The notes beneath the pieces are model-generated. The model made no database searches. It saw only the letters and a program-made list of their open reading frames with translations, and had not been told where the DNA came from. A stretch of 59,520 nt of DNA from a virus, in the IMG/VR virus record IMGVR_UViG_3300024265_001017, positions 1 to 59,520 of that record; one strand, written 5' to 3'. Of the stretch, positions 1 through 52,011 are shown piece after piece (the first letter of the stretch is position 1; the number at the start of each line of letters is the position of its first letter). Made by a program: the position numbers and the translations under genes.

Positions 1-41
1 CGTGTTGTCTTTTAGCAGTAGACCCGACTTTGGCTGGTTTG

Positions 42-185
42 TTACCTTCTTTGTTTTGGCCTGTCGAGCGCAATAGTAAACGCTTTCTTGGCCTTCGTAC
101 AGAAACGTTTTAGACCCTTGTATGGCGTGTCTCTAACCGTAAGCTCGCCTCTACATGTGAACGGGTCGTATTTTCTTTCGGTCAT
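42..185 (-). CDS. small basic hypothetical protein (47 aa)
   Basis: I do not recognise this protein. It has 47 residues, is Lys/Arg-rich, and ends in RPKQRR. The ATG at 185 is preceded by a GAGGGGGT ribosome site at good spacing; an upstream in-frame ATG at 242 lacks one. It lies downstream of the large gene-free region and points toward the left edge. If the genome is circular, it is followed directly by the small leftward genes at the right edge. Weakly supported as a gene because of its size. Confidence 0.5.
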   Translation of the reverse strand: MTERKYDPFTCRGELTVRDTPYKGLKRFCTKAKKAFTIALDRPKQRR

Positions 186-643
186 GTCATCAACCCCCTC
201 ATTGTTGAAACCGGGCAGTCCCAAGGCCCACAGTTGACCCACTCGCTACCGCCGTCGCGGAATCTGGTAAGCTCCCGTGTGGGGAGGGACTGCAAAATGT
301 TTGAGCTAACAAGCTACCTCCAGGTTTAATCTAGTGATAGCACTTAAAAGCTGCTCTCAGTGTAGTGGGACAGCTACTCCCAAAAGACTGCTCATTGCTT
401 TGTCGCTTACCAACCTAGCAGTTAGGTGTCCCTATTCTGACTGGGACATGTCAGCGTGTCACGTACAAACGCCCTGACACCGCGCCGCGCAACTATTGTA
501 CCCGTCTGTGGTAGTCTCGCCACTTAGACTCTCGGGGTATTTCAACCCCTGCCTCCCAAGCAGACTTACCCTCCAGTAGTATCCAGGCATTGCTTTTACC
601 GGCGTTGCCGAACGCGGGAGCTTGCTAGCTCAAAACATATAGA

Positions 644-707
644 GGCGGCGCAAGGAATCGAACCTTGATTGAGGTCTGGGCGACCCCCTTTGCCAATTTA
701 ACCCGCC
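644..707 (-). tRNA. degenerate tRNA-like element
   Basis: On the minus strand a perfect T arm (CAAGG-TTCGATT-CCTTG) and a 5-bp anticodon-type arm (GGGGT-CGCCCAG-ACCTC) are joined by only 3 nt. The acceptor pairs in its first 5 positions (GGCGG/CCGCC) and mispairs at 6-7. Only about 10 nt are left for a D arm, and position 33 of the loop is G rather than T. The formal anticodon would be CCC (Gly). It may be a decayed tRNA, a tRNA mimic or part of the larger structured RNA. Decoding function is doubtful. Confidence 0.3.
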
Positions 708-1281
708 GAATCCTTGAGTACCTAGTGACCTATAGTTTCTGGTGTCTGTAACACCAGCGAACATGCGGGGCGAAAACCCCTACCACTTCCCTTCCTCAAG
801 GCAAAATCAATTGATAGCTGGCTGAGTTACACGCCGACAGAATCCGGCTCCTCTCCACTCCACATTACCTCACTCGCCACACACGGGGCAAGCTCTGCCC
901 ATCGTTCGGTCTCCGACCCCCATGTCAGAGTCCTACTAGAGAGGGCATCACTTGATACGCATGACACCGAGCTATCAAAACGCGCCGTGGGTACTCGCTC
1001 TCCACTTCCAGAGAGTTTGCCGATGCTCAGGACTTACCTTTGCGCTTTCCTCTTTGCCTGTCATCTTTTCGGGTACTAACTACAGCGCGTAGACCACCAT
1101 GAAACAAACATCTACACCCATGCGGCTTGGTCGTAGCCCGTAGAGGTTAGCATTGCCCTTCCCCACGAAAATGTATAAAATGTCCAAGCAAGCTGCCTAG
1201 CACCTAAACTCAAGGCTTTGAATCCCCATTCACCCGCTATTTAGGATGTTGGGTTGGAGAATCCGCTTGCTCGAAAACGTT

Positions 1282-1365
1282 CTGTCAGGAAACTATGCTC
1301 GAAACGTTGCCGTCCATACGCCGACAACACGACTCGCCGTGATGGGACGAGGAAGTGCCTGACAG
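1282..1365. repeat. 8-bp inverted repeat closing a ~70-nt domain
   Basis: CTGTCAGG at 1282-1289 is the exact reverse complement of CCTGACAG at 1358-1365. The interval carries further short pairings. This is the kind of long-range stem expected in a folded RNA, and it lies centrally in the gene-free region. Confidence 0.55.
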
Positions 1366-2694
1366 TTAAAACTTTTATAAAGTGCTTGGTGGCGCTGCTC
1401 CATCTGCGAGTCCATCTGTGTAATCGGTCTCCGTTCGCATCTTGTTATGCCCAGCAGAGTGCCCGCGTTACCAAGCGGCTTTGTGCTTTTATAATCGAAC
1501 TGACCAGCGGGCCATCGTTGCACAGGTGATGTAATTTTAGGGCGCTTACCTGTTAGAAGACGTTGCCTATTATCCGCTGTTATCAGCTCGAAAGTGATTA
1601 TCAAAAGAGCAAGCGGCCCACAGTAGGTCTTGCGACCCCACCCCGGCGAAAAGTAGCTCACTTCCGCGCTCATAAACTTGGTCGAGCAGATGCTCTAGGT
1701 TACCCACTGTCGGCACCAAATCTTTGCGCTAAGTGCGGGAAACTGCATGGAACCTTCCAAGTCAAAGGGCGGTTACCCTAACCCTCGACCACTTGCCCCT
1801 CAGATAATCAGTTCTAAGCTTCAATAGATAACCCGACTGCCTACCCCGTAGCAGCCGCGGCCAAACCGGACAGCGCATAGGGCAGATTTTGTTTTCAAGG
1901 AAACTCAAGGCACCGCCTATTTCGCTCCGCGGAGCTACTTTGCGGTACTATTGTAGTCTTGCGGTCAATCGCAACACCGTCCAAGCGACCTCACGTTTCC
2001 GACCAGCTTCGTCTGTTTCAACTGCTTGGTGGCCGTTGCTTGGTTGTCGAGCTATCAATTAAAGCTCAGAACTTTTGTTATTGACTAGATTGTTTAGCAG
2101 GCAGTCTCCCGAGGTGCCCGCATCTCTATGTCAGGCATATTTTGTGCGGTATGTCGGTGGTCGCCGTCCTTACGTGTCAGCGGTTCAAAGGCGCTAAACA
2201 CATGTCAGACAATTTTCGGTGGCTTGACGGACTTACTACCTTCGCGCTTTCGCTTGAATGTGGTTGCCGTCTAAACTCTTCGACTTACTCCGCTCTGTTG
2301 CCTTGCTTTCAATGCTACCCTTGCTGCTTCACGGTCACGCTTTCAACGCTCGACCTTGCCCGCGGTGCGACGAATCGCTATCCATTATGACTTTTAAGCC
2401 AGCGGCTCTCTGTTGTAGTGTGACCACACACCGAAAACCTCGGTGCGGTCAGGAACTATCATATGGAGCTTTAGCTGGACTGCGCGAACTATTTACAGCC
2501 AAGAGGCTGCTTGCTAAACTTTCTAGTTTGTAATTCAATCGGCAGGTCAGACTTTCTTGTCAAGCCCTCTACTCAACTTTGAGGGTCTGTCCCTGTCGGG
2601 TCGCTACTAGCTCCCGATTGCCTTCCCACCGTTCCCCGTTTGTCTGGGGCTTTTCCTTCCCTTGAGCTTCTTTGGTTCTCTCTCTCTCGGTACA

Positions 2695-2700
2695 ATTATA
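2695..2700 (-). promoter_or_regulatory. minus-strand -10 box (TATAAT)
   Basis: A consensus TATAAT reads leftward into the gene-free region. No good -35 lies at 17 bp; TTGTAT at 2722-2727 is 21 bp away. It would start the candidate large RNA and possibly the leftward small-gene series. Position relative to the region supports it more than the -35 does. Confidence 0.35.
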
Positions 2701-2801
2701 TCCTATCATATCTGGCCGGGAATACAAGCCGGGCCGTTAGCGCCTGCCGTGCGTATTTTCTCGATTTTTGAAAGATTTTTCGTCTTTTTCGGTAATACCG
2801 T

Positions 2802-2823
2802 GGGGGGTTTTAGTAGTCCCCCC
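2802..2823. terminator. G6/C6 hairpin between divergent units
   Basis: Six G, a 10-nt loop and six C form a strong hairpin. No U-run follows on either strand, so a classical intrinsic terminator is uncertain. It separates the leftward -10 box from the endolysin promoter. Confidence 0.35.
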
Positions 2824-2848
2824 GGTGGTTTAAGTTGTCAAAGTGCGT

Positions 2849-2854
2849 TATAAT
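2849..2854 (+). promoter_or_regulatory. -10 box upstream of the endolysin
   Basis: TATAAT lies about 40 nt before the endolysin ATG, at a sensible distance for a transcript start plus an AGGAGG leader. The -35 region (TGGTTT-like) is poor, so it may need an activator. Confidence 0.4.
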
Positions 2855-2894
2855 GTATGCACTATATATATACCCGCAAAGGAGGGAAAATAAC

Positions 2895-3443
2895 ATGCTT
2901 TACACAAAAAGTTTAGCCAAGGGTGACAAAGGCCCGAGCGTTGCGGATTTACAACGTCGAATTAACCACCATCATTTCAAAGTGGTCGGCCCAGATGACG
3001 GTCACTTTGGGGAGAATACAAAGATTGCCGTGGTACGTTTTCAAGATGCGTTCGGACTCGCACAAGATGGCGTAGTTGGCCCGAAGACCCAGAACAAGCT
3101 TATGGTTGGTGGTCAAGTCTCTGCTCATTTCAACATCTTCCACGATGTTCTTTACAGTCGAGGAAACGGTGACTTGATTCTACGCGGCGAGCTTATTCAC
3201 CGCTTAGAGGTAGTGCGCTCGATACTCGGCAACAAGCCAGTGATTGTAAACTCCTGTTTTAGGGACGAACGCTATAACTACATCATCGGTGGAGCAACCC
3301 GTTCCCAGCACAAGAAAGGAGCGGCTGGCGACATTGTTGTCATTGGTGTCAGTCCTACGGGCGTGGCAAATGCTGGAAGGCAGGCAGGCTTTAAGTTCAT
3401 CCAAGTTTATTCTGGATTTACGCACCTTGACATTCGCGCTTAA
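2895..3443 (+). CDS. endolysin: peptidoglycan-binding domain + M15-type peptidase
   Basis: This 182-residue protein probably cleaves peptide cross-links in host peptidoglycan at lysis. Residues ~8-70 fit a peptidoglycan-binding_1 repeat (GPSVADLQRRI, FGENTKIAVVRFQ, GVVGPKT). The C-terminal half has M15/YcbK-like signatures: NSCFRDERYN, GGATRSQHKKGAAGDI with the zinc His and Asp, and a terminal FTHLDIR with the last His. No signal peptide is visible, so export would need the holin-like protein encoded near 19.1 kb. The start at 2895 has a near-perfect GGAGGG site; an in-frame ATG 60 nt upstream has none. It is the first gene of the rightward block, far from the holin, which is unusual for a lysis cassette. 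Confidence 0.85.
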   Translation: MLYTKSLAKGDKGPSVADLQRRINHHHFKVVGPDDGHFGENTKIAVVRFQDAFGLAQDGVVGPKTQNKLMVGGQVSAHFNIFHDVLYSRGNGDLILRGELIHRLEVVRSILGNKPVIVNSCFRDERYNYIIGGATRSQHKKGAAGDIVVIGVSPTGVANAGRQAGFKFIQVYSGFTHLDIRA

Positions 3444-8996: not shown

Positions 8997-9476
8997 ATGG
9001 CAGTAACAGAAGAAAGAACTGGTAGATTCGTTATCAAGCGAGTCAAGAATAAAGGCAACGACAACTACCGAACAATCGCCTTTGACGAGGACGACAAACA
9101 GGTAGGCAGCACTTTCGATGAAGAGATAGCCGACAAGCTTGCGGCATACCCAGAGGGTGCGGAGATAACTCTTGAACTTGATAAGAGCGGTCGGTTCTGG
9201 GATATTGTTGGCGCTCGCTTAGCCGATGAGGGAGACCAGAGCGGAGCTAAAGCTGAAAAGGCAGCGCCCAGTGGTGGGAGTAGCAGGCCCACATTCAACA
9301 ACAGGGACATGACCTATTTCATCGGTAGCTCAGCCCGAGTCATAGCGGCTCTTGTCCACGCATCTGAGGACTACAGAGACAAGATAGAGGACGCTACTGA
9401 CCCAGTTGAGGCAATTCATAAGGATATCGTTTTCGGGGCGAAACTCCTTTTCAATGAAGCGAACAAAGGTAGCTAA
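8997..9476 (+). CDS. hypothetical replication-cluster protein (159 aa), SSB-like position
   Basis: No family is recognised with certainty. The first ~75 residues form alternating beta-like segments ending in ITLELDKSGRFWDIVGA, compatible with an OB fold. A flexible Gly/Ser/Ala/Glu linker (residues 80-100) leads to a helical C-terminal half. A perfect AAGGAGGT site and a one-base stop/start overlap with the primase gene suggest high expression. It may be a phage single-stranded-DNA-binding protein or primase partner; this is inference from context. Confidence 0.55.
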   Translation: MAVTEERTGRFVIKRVKNKGNDNYRTIAFDEDDKQVGSTFDEEIADKLAAYPEGAEITLELDKSGRFWDIVGARLADEGDQSGAKAEKAAPSGGSSRPTFNNRDMTYFIGSSARVIAALVHASEDYRDKIEDATDPVEAIHKDIVFGAKLLFNEANKGS

Positions 9477-11431
9477 TGTACCCTGAATTAACTCTCTATA
9501 GAGAGCTTGGTTGGACGGCTTTTCCCCTCGCTAAGAGGGGGAAGCGTCCGACTGGTGACATAAAGTGGAAGTCATTGCAGACAACGGCACCCGACGATGA
9601 CCTATATGACCACTACTGCCGAAAGATTGAGCGCGAGGACATGAACATCGGCCTGGTCACTGGCAAACTTAGCAACCTATATGTGGTAGACTTTGATTAT
9701 GCACATGGCGGAGCAGAGACATTAAAAGAGCTATGTGATGATGGCACCATTGACTTACTCACTACGCCGAGCGTCGATACCCCACACGGCAAGCATGTGT
9801 ACTTTGCATTCCCCGCTGTCGAACTGCGAAACACTGCGGCGCGACTGCCGGGACTAGATACACGCGGCGAGGGCGGTTATGTTGTAGCGCCCCCAAGCAA
9901 GCTAGAGGATGGAGAGTACAGATGGTTTACGCCGTTAGAGGAACCAATCGACCTACCGGAAGTGCCAGTGGCGCTAGTGGAACTGTTAAACAAACCCGCA
10001 GTGGTAGCTGCCACCGGCTCGAACGAGTACGCTCCGCTGCTTGAGGGAGTAAGCGAGGGAGGGCGTAACAATTCAGCAGCTATCTTGGCTGGTCACTTCT
10101 TCAACAAGGGACTGTCTGCCGATGTGGTGCTTACTATCCTAAGAGACTGGAATGGAAGAAACGACCCACCGCTCAAGGAGACAGAGCTTGAGTCAGTGGT
10201 CGCTAACATCAAAGGCAAAGAAGTTGAAAAACGGACAGACAACCACCCCTCGCCTACCCAGTTTGACATACCCGACATACCCATACTGAGTGACTACGTT
10301 GATTTGGCGAGCGGTGCCATCCCCGCGCCGAAGAGTTACCATGTGATGTGTTGCTTGAGCTTGCTGTCCACACTGCTCTCTGAGAACGTGGCCCTATCGC
10401 TCAAGTCCGATTGGTTGTACCCCAATCTATATATTATGCTCTTGGCAGACACTACTTGGACATATAAGACGACAAGCATGAAACGCTCTTTGGCCCTACT
10501 GGACAAGGTGTACCCAGAAGCAGTAATCGGTAGTGGTGGGTCACCCGAAGGACTGTTCTATGCGCTGTCGGAAAGACAGGGAATATCTTCTCTCTTCTTT
10601 AGAGATGAAGCGGTCGGTTTCTTCTACGAGGCAGGCCAGAAGAATTATATGAGCGGGATGCTTGACAGTCTGACAAAGTTCTACGATTGCCAGTCGGAGC
10701 GTCGAGTACTCGCTGGTGACCAACGCCAGAACCAAGTCGTTCGTACTGTACACATTAGAGACCCGCGACTGTCCTTGATGGCAGGCGGCACCCTGACTCG
10801 TTTCTTCGATGTGATTGACGAGGACAAGATAATGGATGGTTTCTTGCCACGCTTCCTCTTCTCAGTTAAGGAAGGGAATGCGAGCAGTCTCCGCCCGTTG
10901 GAGATGGCAGACAATAAGTACACGCGGGACAGTGACATTCTACTCCAAAATATTATGGGCTTGTATCTCAAGGGCAAGCGGCAGATGACAACGACTCAGC
11001 CCGTGTTGGACATGCACCATGAATACATGGTCGAGCTTGTCACTAGCGAGCTTTCCAGATATGGTGGACGAGATTTCGGCGGCGTGTACAACCGGCTGGC
11101 GATAAGTGTCTTAAAGGTAGCCATGATATTGGCTTGTACAGAGGGGAAGCAAAAGGTGACATTGACAAAGAAACATTTACAGAACGCCATCTTGCTTGCC
11201 CAAGAGTGGAAGCAATCGCTAGACTTCATAATCAAAACGGTTGGTAAGCCGAGCAAAGAACGCATGTACGACAAGGTGCTTGGGCATCTTACGGACTGTG
11301 GAGGAACGACTACACGCTCCGCACTGATGAAACTGTTCCACTTGGAGAGCAGAGAGATGACGCGCATCGTTGACACCCTGCTTGACCGAGAGCAGATAGT
11401 TTGTAACGGAAAGCTGGTGAGCATAAGATAA
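9476..11431 (+). CDS. primase-polymerase / DUF3987 replication protein (651 aa)
   Basis: Residues 1-180 fit the bifunctional primase-polymerase domain: VVDFD with D72 and D74, GKHVYF with H107, and DTRGEGGYVVAPPS at 128-141. Residues ~195-250 resemble a primase C-terminal helical domain. Residues ~270-560 match DUF3987-type helicase-like proteins, with an atypical P-loop ADTTWTYKTT (324-333) that lacks the usual glycines and an LFFRDEAVGF Walker-B-like strand (D377/E378). The last ~65 residues look like a winged helix. It probably primes and possibly unwinds DNA at the phage fork. Starts by ATG overlap; ends by TAATG overlap with the polymerase gene. Confidence 0.82.
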   Translation: MYPELTLYRELGWTAFPLAKRGKRPTGDIKWKSLQTTAPDDDLYDHYCRKIEREDMNIGLVTGKLSNLYVVDFDYAHGGAETLKELCDDGTIDLLTTPSVDTPHGKHVYFAFPAVELRNTAARLPGLDTRGEGGYVVAPPSKLEDGEYRWFTPLEEPIDLPEVPVALVELLNKPAVVAATGSNEYAPLLEGVSEGGRNNSAAILAGHFFNKGLSADVVLTILRDWNGRNDPPLKETELESVVANIKGKEVEKRTDNHPSPTQFDIPDIPILSDYVDLASGAIPAPKSYHVMCCLSLLSTLLSENVALSLKSDWLYPNLYIMLLADTTWTYKTTSMKRSLALLDKVYPEAVIGSGGSPEGLFYALSERQGISSLFFRDEAVGFFYEAGQKNYMSGMLDSLTKFYDCQSERRVLAGDQRQNQVVRTVHIRDPRLSLMAGGTLTRFFDVIDEDKIMDGFLPRFLFSVKEGNASSLRPLEMADNKYTRDSDILLQNIMGLYLKGKRQMTTTQPVLDMHHEYMVELVTSELSRYGGRDFGGVYNRLAISVLKVAMILACTEGKQKVTLTKKHLQNAILLAQEWKQSLDFIIKTVGKPSKERMYDKVLGHLTDCGGTTTRSALMKLFHLESREMTRIVDTLLDREQIVCNGKLVSIR

Positions 11432-13689
11432 TGGCTAAGAAGAAAGAGCCTGGTTGCACTGGCTGTTCCTTTCGAGGGAACAAGCGACTACTGCCTATGA
11501 TTGCCGAAGATGACGGCAACGGCATCCCTCTACGGACATTGTTTGTTGGGGAGTCACCCACATGGGACGATATGGAAGCTGGTAAGCTGGGAGAGGAAGA
11601 GCTGTTCAAGCAGATGGTCGAACGGTTCAAAATCTCCCGCTATGCGTTTACCAACGTGGCGCTATGTAACCCACCCAAGGACAAGAAGGCAAAGGTTGCC
11701 GAGGTAGAGAGCTGTTCCATATTTCTCGATGCTTTCATAGAGACCTGGCGACCGAATCAAATAGTCTGCTTGGGCAAGCTTGCTGCCCGAGCGATACTTG
11801 GGAAAGAAGTAGCGGCCCAGAAGATGTATAAGCTCCGCGAGCAGTCGCCCATCAGAATCAACGACAACACAGAGCAAGCGGCGAACGTCTTTGTCACTTA
11901 CAGCCCGAAGGCAGTATACAAGCGCCCGAAACTGATAGACGACTTTGTGGCTGACTTTGACTTTATAATGCACCCGCCTGTCCCTACGTGGATAGACCCA
12001 GCAAGCGAGTTTAAGAAGTCCCGCGCCGAGTGGCTTGCTTGGTATGGTGGATACACAGAGAATGGCGAGACAAGAGGCGATATCTTTCCAGAGGCATTTG
12101 CTGAGCCGTGCGCCCTTGACTTTGAGACAACGGGACTGCATCCGATACGCAACCGGCCAGTCACCATAGCGCTGTCTTGGTGGGCAGAGGAGTCCATTGT
12201 CGTCAACCTACACGACATGACAGACGAGGAGATGGCGCTCACTCTCCAAGAGATAGACGATTTGATAAGGCTGAGTGCTTGCGTTGTCTATCACAATGCA
12301 AAGTTCGATATGAAATTCTTCAAGCAGTGGGGTGGAATCAAACCCCCGCTGGGATGGGATACAAAGCTCGCTGATTACACGTTGACAGGAAACCCAGAGG
12401 CTAGCCGTGGGCTAAAGTATCTAGCGCGTAGAAAGATGTTTGCGCCAGCGTACAATGAGGACATAGTATTCGACGGGACGACACCCATTGAAGACATGGC
12501 AACCTATAATGGACAAGATTCATCAACCACTCTCCAGCTCTATGATATACAGCGCAAGCTCCATCCAGACCTCGACTTGTTGGAACACCTATACGAGTCT
12601 ACCGACATGCTTGTAGACGCTGAGTTGACGGGAGCGCCGGTTAAAGAAGAGTGGCTGGACGAGCGAGCAACCGTGTTGACTGAGGAGACTGACAGGCTCC
12701 AGGCAGAGTTCGATGCCGAAGAATTGAACCCAAATAGTTATAAGCAGATACGCGCATACTTTGATATAAAAGAGTCGGACAAGGAAGCGCTCAAAGAACT
12801 GAAAGACCCAATGGCAGATAAGATTCTCGCATTTCGAGCGAGCGCCAAAGAGCTTAGCACATATGTAACCGGATTCTCAGAGCATATAGTAGACGGTAGA
12901 GTCCATACGGACTACATAGTGCCAGGTACGTTGACTGGCAGGCTCGCATCACGCGGCCCGAACATGCAGAACCTAAAGGCAAGCGACGAGGCAGAGCATG
13001 ACTACCAGGCGGTAGTAGCATCGAACGACCCCAGCAAAAGGGTTGTTCACTTTGACTATAGCCAGGTTGAGATGCGAATAATGGGTATCGAGTCACTAGA
13101 TGAACGCCTGCTCGACGTATTTCAGAGCGGTCGGAGCATTCATGCCGAACTTGCTATCGAGATAAACGGTGAGAACTATACCGACCGCCAGTACACCAAT
13201 GCCAAGTCTGCGAACTTCGGTATCATTTATGGCATCAGTCCGTTCGGACTATCGCATCTTATGAAATCGACAGAAGAGGAAGCAGGCGTGTACTTGAACA
13301 CTTGGTACGACATGTATCCCCAAGTGAGCGTTTGGCAGCGCAAGATTAGAAAGCTGATTAAGGAACAGGGTTACGTTGAGACTCCGTTTGGTCGGCGCAG
13401 GCGCTTTGACCTTGAGGGCTTGGTAGTCAAGCAGTCTACCATTTTCCGAGAGGGAATCAACTTTCCCATCCAGAGTTTTGCTTGTGACGTTTATCTATCG
13501 GCTGCTCTGGCTATCTGGAAAGAGACTGGTGTCTACCCCATCCAACTAGTGCATGACGAGCTTGTCTATGAGTTGGATGTTTACGGGATAGATGATACAA
13601 TGGATTACATTAGCTGGAAGATGCGAAAGGTCGGAGAAGACTTAACTGGCAACGTGATACCTATACCAGCAGAAGTAAAGGGGGCTTGA
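11431..13689 (+). CDS. UDG-like domain fused to family A DNA polymerase (752 aa)
   Basis: Replicative polymerase. Residues ~1-180 resemble family 4/5 uracil-DNA glycosylase (CTGCSF near 9-13, FVGESP near 38-43, NVALCNPP near 75-82), an arrangement known from phage SPO1 polymerase. Exonuclease motifs are intact: ExoI DFET (D230/E232), ExoII HNAKFD (288-293), ExoIII YNGQD (359-363). Polymerase motifs are intact: TGRLASRGPNMQN (502-514), motif A FDYSQVE (541-547), motif B ending NFGIIYG (595-601), motif C VHDE (707-710). In motif B the position of the conserved dNTP-contacting Arg appears to be Tyr588. Whether the UDG domain is catalytic is unclear. Coupled to the primase gene by TAATG. Confidence 0.92.
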   Translation: MAKKKEPGCTGCSFRGNKRLLPMIAEDDGNGIPLRTLFVGESPTWDDMEAGKLGEEELFKQMVERFKISRYAFTNVALCNPPKDKKAKVAEVESCSIFLDAFIETWRPNQIVCLGKLAARAILGKEVAAQKMYKLREQSPIRINDNTEQAANVFVTYSPKAVYKRPKLIDDFVADFDFIMHPPVPTWIDPASEFKKSRAEWLAWYGGYTENGETRGDIFPEAFAEPCALDFETTGLHPIRNRPVTIALSWWAEESIVVNLHDMTDEEMALTLQEIDDLIRLSACVVYHNAKFDMKFFKQWGGIKPPLGWDTKLADYTLTGNPEASRGLKYLARRKMFAPAYNEDIVFDGTTPIEDMATYNGQDSSTTLQLYDIQRKLHPDLDLLEHLYESTDMLVDAELTGAPVKEEWLDERATVLTEETDRLQAEFDAEELNPNSYKQIRAYFDIKESDKEALKELKDPMADKILAFRASAKELSTYVTGFSEHIVDGRVHTDYIVPGTLTGRLASRGPNMQNLKASDEAEHDYQAVVASNDPSKRVVHFDYSQVEMRIMGIESLDERLLDVFQSGRSIHAELAIEINGENYTDRQYTNAKSANFGIIYGISPFGLSHLMKSTEEEAGVYLNTWYDMYPQVSVWQRKIRKLIKEQGYVETPFGRRRRFDLEGLVVKQSTIFREGINFPIQSFACDVYLSAALAIWKETGVYPIQLVHDELVYELDVYGIDDTMDYISWKMRKVGEDLTGNVIPIPAEVKGA

Positions 13690-48031: not shown

Positions 48032-48098
48032 GAGCCTGGAAGGGATTGAACCCTCTGCTGGAATTTTGGAGACTCCTGCCCGGCCCACCAACAGACTC
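48032..48098 (-). tRNA. tRNA-Trp (CCA) with reduced D arm
   Basis: Acceptor GAGTCTG/CAGGCTC (one G-U), anticodon arm GGAGT-CTCCAAA-ATTCC giving CCA, T arm GAGGG-TTCAATC-CCTTC. Only 12 nt remain for the D arm (67 nt in total) and they do not form a proper stem. Confidence 0.6.
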
Positions 48099-50674: not shown

Positions 50675-50703
50675 ATTATATCACTTGCCACCCTTACTAT
50701 CAA
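50675..50703 (-). promoter_or_regulatory. strong late promoter for the terminase/structural operon
   Basis: TTGATA, 17 bp, extended TGA-TATAAT. The -35 matches 5 of 6 consensus bases. It lies in the last codons of the mom-like gene and points at terS. Confidence 0.75.
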
Positions 50704-51463
50704 TCTTCCGCTTCGGATACTCAACGGTGAGCGGTTTCACGTATGTCATAATCCGCTCCCGCTCCTTGCCAGTCGCAAGAACATAAACGTACCGCCACTT
50801 GGGGTTGGTTCGGTTCTCCTTCCAACCGGCTGCAAGGAACTTTTGCCGTAGTTGGCTCCACGATAGGTTCGGGCATTTGTTAATCTTCGTGTCGTGTATA
50901 ATCTTCTGGTCGTAAATTTTGCCGTTTGGATGTATGAGCTGAGTGGTACGCCCGCCCTTCCCTATACAAATCCAATTGGTCGCTTGATATAGGGTTCCTA
51001 TTTCGCCTGCATCGGTGTCCGAGTAGGCTATCGCTATTTTGCGGCCTTTCTTTTTCTCCATCTTCAATGAGTAAGAAATGAGCTTGCTTCCCGTGCCCTT
51101 CGGTGTCCAATGGGTACATGCACCGCGGGCAAGGTAGGCCATCTCTCGCTGGTCAACCCCCAATTGCTCCGCTACCCGGTTCCCAGCCGGGCTACCAAAG
51201 CAGCAAACACCACCGCAGTAGTACTTATCGAAGAATATACCGTAGTATGTACGGCAAATAGGTAGTGTACCAAGCCATTCGTAGTGCAAAATGATTTTCT
51301 GGGCCACTTTACGGGTGGTCTGCCTCACTTTCGCTGATTTAAGGTGAGGTTCACCGCTTGGACGGGGGGCAACGTCCGCTTTCGACGGGTCTGCGGCGAT
51401 TTGCTCCCGTATTTGGCGCTGATACGCCTTATTTGACGCTTTCTCCCTAAAAGTCTGTCCCAT
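50681..51463 (-). CDS. Mom-like DNA-modification protein (260 aa)
   Basis: YYGIFFDKYYCGGVCCFGSP, VDQREMAYLARGACTHW, KIAIAYSDTDAGEIGTLYQA and TTQLIHPNGKIYDQK align in order with phage Mu Mom (GNAT fold), which turns adenine into a carbamoylmethyl derivative and blocks many restriction enzymes. About 70 extra N-terminal residues are basic. Mu Mom needs tight control; here the gene follows a ParB-like gene by TAATG overlap. Confidence 0.8.
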   Translation of the reverse strand: MGQTFREKASNKAYQRQIREQIAADPSKADVAPRPSGEPHLKSAKVRQTTRKVAQKIILHYEWLGTLPICRTYYGIFFDKYYCGGVCCFGSPAGNRVAEQLGVDQREMAYLARGACTHWTPKGTGSKLISYSLKMEKKKGRKIAIAYSDTDAGEIGTLYQATNWICIGKGGRTTQLIHPNGKIYDQKIIHDTKINKCPNLSWSQLRQKFLAAGWKENRTNPKWRYVYVLATGKERERIMTYVKPLTVEYPKRKIDSKGGK

Positions 51464-52011
51464 TAGCCGATATCCGCCTCTATTTCATACTTTTCGAGCA
51501 ATTCAAAGAGGTCTTCCCGTACAGCGTCAAAGTCAGCGACCGCAAATGTAAGAATCACCGAGTCGTCCGGTGAGGGTTCGGCCCCACCACCAGGCAACAT
51601 GCTCTGGTTGAACTGGGCAGTGAGCTTTTGTATCTCCTTCGTGTCAAAGCCCGTCACCTCTACATCCGGCAGCTTCACCTCAAGCTCTGTAAGCAAGTCT
51701 GTGAGTTTCGGGATATCCCAGCCGCCCCCTATCTTGTTTAGAGCGAGGTTGAGTGCCTTCTCCTTCTCCACTGTCAGGCTAACGATACTAACGGTCACTA
51801 CCTCGTCGCCCCGAGCCTGCAATATCTTGAGGCGTTGGTGACCGCCCACAAGGTTGCCGGTCTTCTCGTTCCAGATTAGAGGCTCAACCAAGTCGAACTC
51901 TTCCAGTGACTTCACCAACTTGTCGTAGTCTGGGTCACCAGGCTGTAGGTCTTTGCGCGGGTTGTACTCCGCTGGATTGATTAGACCGATTGAAATATCC
52001 TTTATCTCCAC
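51463..52011 (-). CDS. ParB/Srx-domain protein (182 aa)
   Basis: LINPAEYNPRKDLQPGD followed by LVEPLIWNEKTGNLVGGHQR and ALNLALNKIGGGWD is the ParB-type nuclease/CTPase fold. In phages and conjugative elements this domain is often linked to DNA modification genes. Here it is directly coupled to the mom-like gene. No methylase domain is fused. GTG start with AGGAGG. Confidence 0.82.
   Translation of the reverse strand: MEIKDISIGLINPAEYNPRKDLQPGDPDYDKLVKSLEEFDLVEPLIWNEKTGNLVGGHQRLKILQARGDEVVTVSIVSLTVEKEKALNLALNKIGGGWDIPKLTDLLTELEVKLPDVEVTGFDTKEIQKLTAQFNQSMLPGGGAEPSPDDSVILTFAVADFDAVREDLFELLEKYEIEADIG

Follow-up and report, generated by a model that had tools for sequence, protein, structure and literature searches.

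The gene-free stretch and its flanks

The window analysed here is an entire IMG/VR virus record of 59,520 bases, and its genes for TerL, portal, capsid, DNA polymerase A and primase identify it as the genome of a tailed phage. Genes fill ~90% of this genome and are arranged in two blocks, with an endolysin, a DUF932 protein, primase and polymerase encoded in a rightward block at ~2.9–19 kb, and structural proteins and many small genes in a leftward block at ~58–19.5 kb. Provided that the contig ends join, these blocks diverge at a gene-free stretch that spans positions 243–2834 and is by far the largest gene-free gap in this phage. Directly downstream of it in the leftward direction is a small ORF of 66 amino acids at 42–242(−), the sole coding-like frame there, and on its other side is the first rightward gene, an endolysin (PG_binding_1 + Peptidase_M15_3) at 2895–3443(+) with a strong Shine-Dalgarno sequence. 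The best TerL matches among named phages have ~33% identity (Methanosarcinales-associated vir525). Searching IMG/VR with TerL recovered closer relatives, with one contig (L009) representing the same virus between about 20 and 52 kb, and another five to six at 63–79%. Elsewhere in the window, a Mom-like DNA modification protein (50681–51463(−)) is encoded beside a weak ParB-N-like protein (51463–52011(−)), and the former suggests that the phage probably modifies its own DNA.

An earlier note had described positions 242–2690 as a region free of genes, a description that we confirm with the bounds better placed at 243–2834. Between the 66-residue ORF and the endolysin we found no ORF with the codon usage of the phage and no short coding-like ORFs. 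The longest internal ORF, 126 amino acids at 1293–1673(−), is about the length expected by chance at this G+C content. The six read-through frames of the stretch had no matches in PHROGs or Pfam, and we therefore rejected a pseudogene or recoded gene. The leftward strand of the gap is purine-rich (55%), as are the genes in the leftward block, and the GC skew switches at the gap. At the entry of the putative leftward transcript there is, as the earlier note had stated, a TATAAT-like −10 element at 2697–2702(−). It has no recognisable −35 element or TTGACA-like partner, the promoter listing likewise has no entry at this position, and neither a good promoter nor an intrinsic terminator was found to bound a leftward RNA. 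Between the gap and the endolysin lies a GC-rich 9-bp inverted repeat (GTGGGGGG TTTTAGTAGT CCCCCCGG) at 2795–2830, near a TATAAT at about 2850(+).

Folding statistics and predicted domains

Local folding in 150-nt windows does not distinguish the stretch from the rest of the genome, whereas longer windows do set about 1.4–2.7 kb apart from it. The strand from 243 to 2690 as a whole folds 44 kcal/mol below its shuffles (z −3.3), which corresponds to −1.81 kcal/mol per 100 nt, while six further genome pieces range from +0.6 to −1.15, and both strands fold about equally well relative to their own shuffles. The best-structured part, a candidate RNA core at 1411–2690(−), has an MFE z-score of −3.6; it lies 2.85 kcal/mol per 100 nt below shuffles, compared with −0.49 ± 0.99 in controls, and below 24 of 24 same-size control pieces from the genome, with p-values that are optimistic because this core was picked after the first scans. 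When two proven lncRNAs of phage K were subjected to the same fold test they gave z-scores of −1.3 and −4.9, and the folding excess of the core is moderate and of the size seen in these RNAs. The middle of the stretch, 750–1400(−), is a possible linker with no folding signal (z +0.5), and in total about half of the stretch is without such a signal.

On inspection, all of the hairpins and stems that the earlier note had listed are present. They include a GCAA tetraloop hairpin (GGUC-GCAA-GACC, 1637–1626), a UUCG hairpin (GCGA-UUCG-UCGC, 2378–2367) with an A-U closure, so that it is not the extra-stable C(UUCG)G, a perfect 7-bp hairpin (CTGGTGT-CTGTA-ACACCAG, 739–757; z −2.8 for 730–790), an interrupted stem at 2422–2450, and, within the possible linker, an 8-bp stem formed by CTGTCAGG and CCTGACAG (1282–1289/1358–1365). 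The presence of one GNRA loop, one UUCG loop and one hairpin of at least 7 bp is near expectation, as a shuffled sequence contains on average 0.43, 0.05 and 0.88 of these, respectively. Hairpins of at least 5 bp number 20 in the stretch, compared with 11.3 ± 3.2 in shuffles, none of 60 of which reaches 20, and a mean of 12.6 and maximum of 20 in other pieces of the genome. The description of the region as hairpin-rich therefore holds for the excess of hairpins of at least 5 bp and the folding in ~1.4–2.7 kb, but the enrichment is only moderate and is uneven, with 750–1400 contributing no signal.

Single-sequence folding suggests that the core consists of four domains in a row, each closed by a helix of 16–27 bp, with almost no sequence between them. 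Predicted domain I, at 2084–2527(−), has a 24-bp closing helix with small internal loops (2527–2500 × 2111–2084) and pair probabilities of 0.96–1.00. Domain II, at 1810–2073(−), would be closed by 16 + 11 bp (2073–2046 × 1837–1810), domain III, at 1596–1809(−), by 7 + 15 bp (1809–1787 × 1618–1596) with the GCAA hairpin inside it, and domain IV, at 1495–1591(−), by 10 + 6 bp (1591–1574 × 1510–1495). The 16 contiguous base pairs of domain II are reached in none of 40 shuffles and in 2 of 40 coding pieces, and the long helices in these controls extend up to 15 and up to 17 bp, respectively. A 3′ domain is predicted at 300–634(−) with a 16-bp closing helix (634–619 × 315–300). The 634–619 arm of this helix could alternatively pair with 280–264, and the best inverted repeat is equalled in 10% of shuffles. 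Overall, the evidence for structure is suggestive, with part of it gathered after the subregion had been chosen.

A tRNA-like element and tag-less mini-tmRNAs

The element at 643–707(−) has a 5-bp acceptor (GGCGG/CCGCC) with two mismatches, a D-loop-like sequence AAUUGGCAAA (also given as AAUUGGCA) without a D stem, and a perfect 5-bp T arm (CAAGG-UUCGAUU-CCUUG), and it looks like a damaged tRNA. It was rejected as a true tRNA, as ARAGORN did not call it and the tRNA model scored it at 14.1 bits, compared with a gathering score of 29; the mascRNA model gave 22.6 bits. Thus, the tRNA-like arms that had been reported at 644–707 exist but are weak. The proposed proximity to tRNAs is weak: the two real tRNAs of the phage, tRNA-Gln and tRNA-Thr at 47.8–48.0 kb, are ~12–14 kb away even on a circular contig, and the stretch itself contains only this degenerate element. 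A mini-tmRNA model matched 640–722 with 24.5 bits (E 5e-5 in 3 kb), while true members score 66–87 bits. GGAUUCG at 713–707 and the T arm are present, but the tmRNA-type acceptor is absent, with no GGGG...CUCC and no G3-U70 pair, and on the basis of this acceptor and the score we rejected the element as a mini-tmRNA. Two readings fit it, a decayed gene and a tRNA-like module within the putative larger RNA. A second D-stem-less tRNA-like element adjoins tRNA-Gln and tRNA-Thr at 48098–48032(−), with a 7-bp acceptor (GAGUCUG/CAGGCUC) and a T arm of GAGGG-UUCAAUC-CCUUC. This element occupies the site of the mini-tmRNA in relatives, and the mini-tmRNA model gives no match to it.

Two relatives of the phage (L011/L100 and L012/L101) carry RNAs of 78–82 nt beside TerL and tRNAs, at L100 6026–5949(−) and L101 3081–3162(+). 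These RNAs pass the Rfam tmRNA threshold although they comprise just the tRNA-like domain and lack the mRNA and pseudoknot domain. A pattern built on them matched 31 viral contigs (L223–L252 and L012), with RNAs of ~63–93 nt, and there are weak matches in named Streptomyces phages. The 23 RNAs that were aligned share GGGG...GG(N)UUCGA...GGUUCGAUUCC-type T arm...CUCCA, and their G3-U70 pair is invariant. Their covariation is strong, with a score of 0.578 compared with 0.131 in shuffles, with 108 double changes compared with 34. RNAs of this kind are already known from mycobacteriophage DS6A, which carries a sequence that is little more than a tmRNA tRNA-like domain (PMC4131195, PMC11915505), and a molecule similar to it inhibits tmRNA, with SmpB titration as a possible mechanism (PMC4131195; PMC11915505). 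The element at 707–643 resembles the DS6A type in lacking a D stem and keeping a perfect T arm, and differs from it in the missing tmRNA acceptor and the low score. The breadth of mini-tmRNAs in phages appears to be undescribed in the literature that we considered. Their recurrence in many phage contigs widens the DS6A precedent, is a firmer result than the large-RNA candidate, and makes the blocking of trans-translation by a phage decoy RNA a directly testable idea.

Relation to known phage RNAs and explanations for the stretch

GOLLD is a large noncoding RNA found in phages and prophages, with a structured part and a linker that may hold tRNAs, and ROOL is a phage RNA of unknown function that is large and built of several domains (PMC12286853). 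The earlier note had linked the stretch to these families, and membership did not hold up. Covariance models for GOLLD (RF02032, conserved 3′ region) and ROOL (RF03087) had no match at E ≤ 10 or at the gathering score, in the case of GOLLD across the whole record, and positions 1–3000 had no match to either family at E ≤ 5; the control genomes were also unmatched by the ROOL model. Judged by these models, membership is excluded but an RNA of the same kind is not, because the phage K lncRNAs also have no GOLLD or ROOL match. In place of the tRNAs that the GOLLD linker may hold, the stretch contains the degenerate tRNA-like element, and it has no true tRNA inside or beside it. The ICP1 gp139–gp140 transcript and lnc001 and lnc002 of phage K, for which abundant transcription is proven (PMC7567579, PMC9241854), come from orphan ORF-free spaces of about 0.6–1.2 kb. 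The present stretch is also orphan and ORF-free, and its folding excess is similar to that of the phage K RNAs, but it is at least twice as long, has no detectable sequence relation to them, and would produce a transcript that is so far putative.

No homologue of the stretch was found by blastn against phages and plasmids, in relatives fetched from IMG/VR, in host-type genomes, or in 398 genomes of one bacterial phylum. Searches with the endolysin, DUF932 protein, DNA polymerase and designed motifs found no close relatives of the rightward block, and no equivalent gap of more than 0.6 kb is present in the distant relatives vir525 and G009–G012. Three candidate matches were set aside: a group II intron at 2394–2182(−) (12 bits, E 2.4) and SNORD35, both of which are chance matches, and 16S-like words noticed by eye (AGCAGCCGCGG at 1849–1859), which have no rRNA match in Rfam.

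The explanation that we favour, with a probability of roughly 45%, is that the stretch encodes an orphan large structured noncoding RNA that would be transcribed leftward and head the leftward operon. In this model, a promoter near 2.70 kb that heads the leftward gene block would drive transcription through a compact core (2690–1411) of consecutive domains, each with a long closing helix. A little-structured linker would follow, and then a 3′ part made up of the tRNA-like element and the helix-closed domain at 634–300. The RNA could act as a stable scaffold or assembly during infection, as is thought for GOLLD, ROOL and the phage K lncRNAs, with the tRNA-like part serving as a handle for processing or for the ribosome or tRNA enzymes. 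The absence of genes, the folding excess, the tRNA-like element and the leftward purine bias are observed in the window, while transcription, the domain layout from a single-sequence fold and each of these functional steps are inferred. Counting against this explanation are the lack of homologues, the ordinary local folding, the similar folding of both strands, the long helices in control sequences, the absence of good transcript boundaries, and the compact gene array that the nearest-reaching relative (L097) shows instead.

A possible, though unlikely, alternative is that the stretch is a decayed tract, in which small leftward genes and a gene of the tRNA- or tmRNA-like type have lost their function and await deletion. 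The contigs of the close relatives found with TerL stop before the stretch, and the one that reaches nearest (L097) has, beyond the last gene that it has in common with the window, about 20 small leftward genes in a compact array over ~4 kb, followed by ~0.2 kb and the contig end. Such genes could be the source of a decayed tract, which would also fit the damaged appearance of the tRNA-like element and the lack of folding signal in about half of the stretch. However, the six read-through frames contain no recognisable gene remnant, folding better than shuffles is not expected of decay, and phages usually lose dead DNA quickly. Among the small phage genes of L097 there is also an SBF superfamily transporter (9427–10425(−), ACR3-like by eye), possibly an arsenite-efflux cargo gene, and before its first leftward gene, at the contig end, a three-way-junction hairpin structure is predicted by eye at 11950–12013.

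It is also unlikely that the stretch is non-transcribed control DNA, with divergent promoters and a replication origin or packaging site. Its position where the gene blocks diverge, the GC-skew switch, and the combination of an A+T-rich promoter-like block with the 9-bp GC-rich inverted repeat within 2.69–2.87 kb would suit this role, but 2.4 kb far exceeds the needs of such sites, and we found no iterons or tandem arrays in the stretch and no A+T-rich unwinding region within 243–2690. A set of independent small RNAs or very short genes in place of a single RNA could account for the unstructured middle that divides the structured parts, and the tRNA-like element could then be transcribed separately; this arrangement is very improbable given the lack of coding-like short ORFs and of any known small-RNA family at the gathering score in the stretch. 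An assembly chimera, with the left end of the contig derived from another genome, can be dismissed almost entirely: the stretch is at a contig end, has no relative, and is not covered by the near-identical contig L009, but its tetranucleotide distance (0.26) is within the range of other pieces (0.205 ± 0.035, maximum 0.337), the strand skew continues smoothly, and the orientation of the flanking ORFs fits.

GOLLD and ROOL assemble into cages of unknown purpose, and to our knowledge few independent classes of large phage RNA have been recognised. A large noncoding RNA at this locus might be the first representative of a new class of large (1.3–2.4 kb), ornate phage RNAs, with serial long-helix domains and a tmRNA- or tRNA-like 3′ module, that exceeds the usual length of GOLLD and ROOL and is unrelated to them, although we consider this stronger proposal doubtful. 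At present the stretch is a single unconfirmed candidate. If the proposal is true, the stretch would represent a third class, unrelated to GOLLD and ROOL and with a built-in tRNA-like module, which would allow the features common to such RNAs to be compared.
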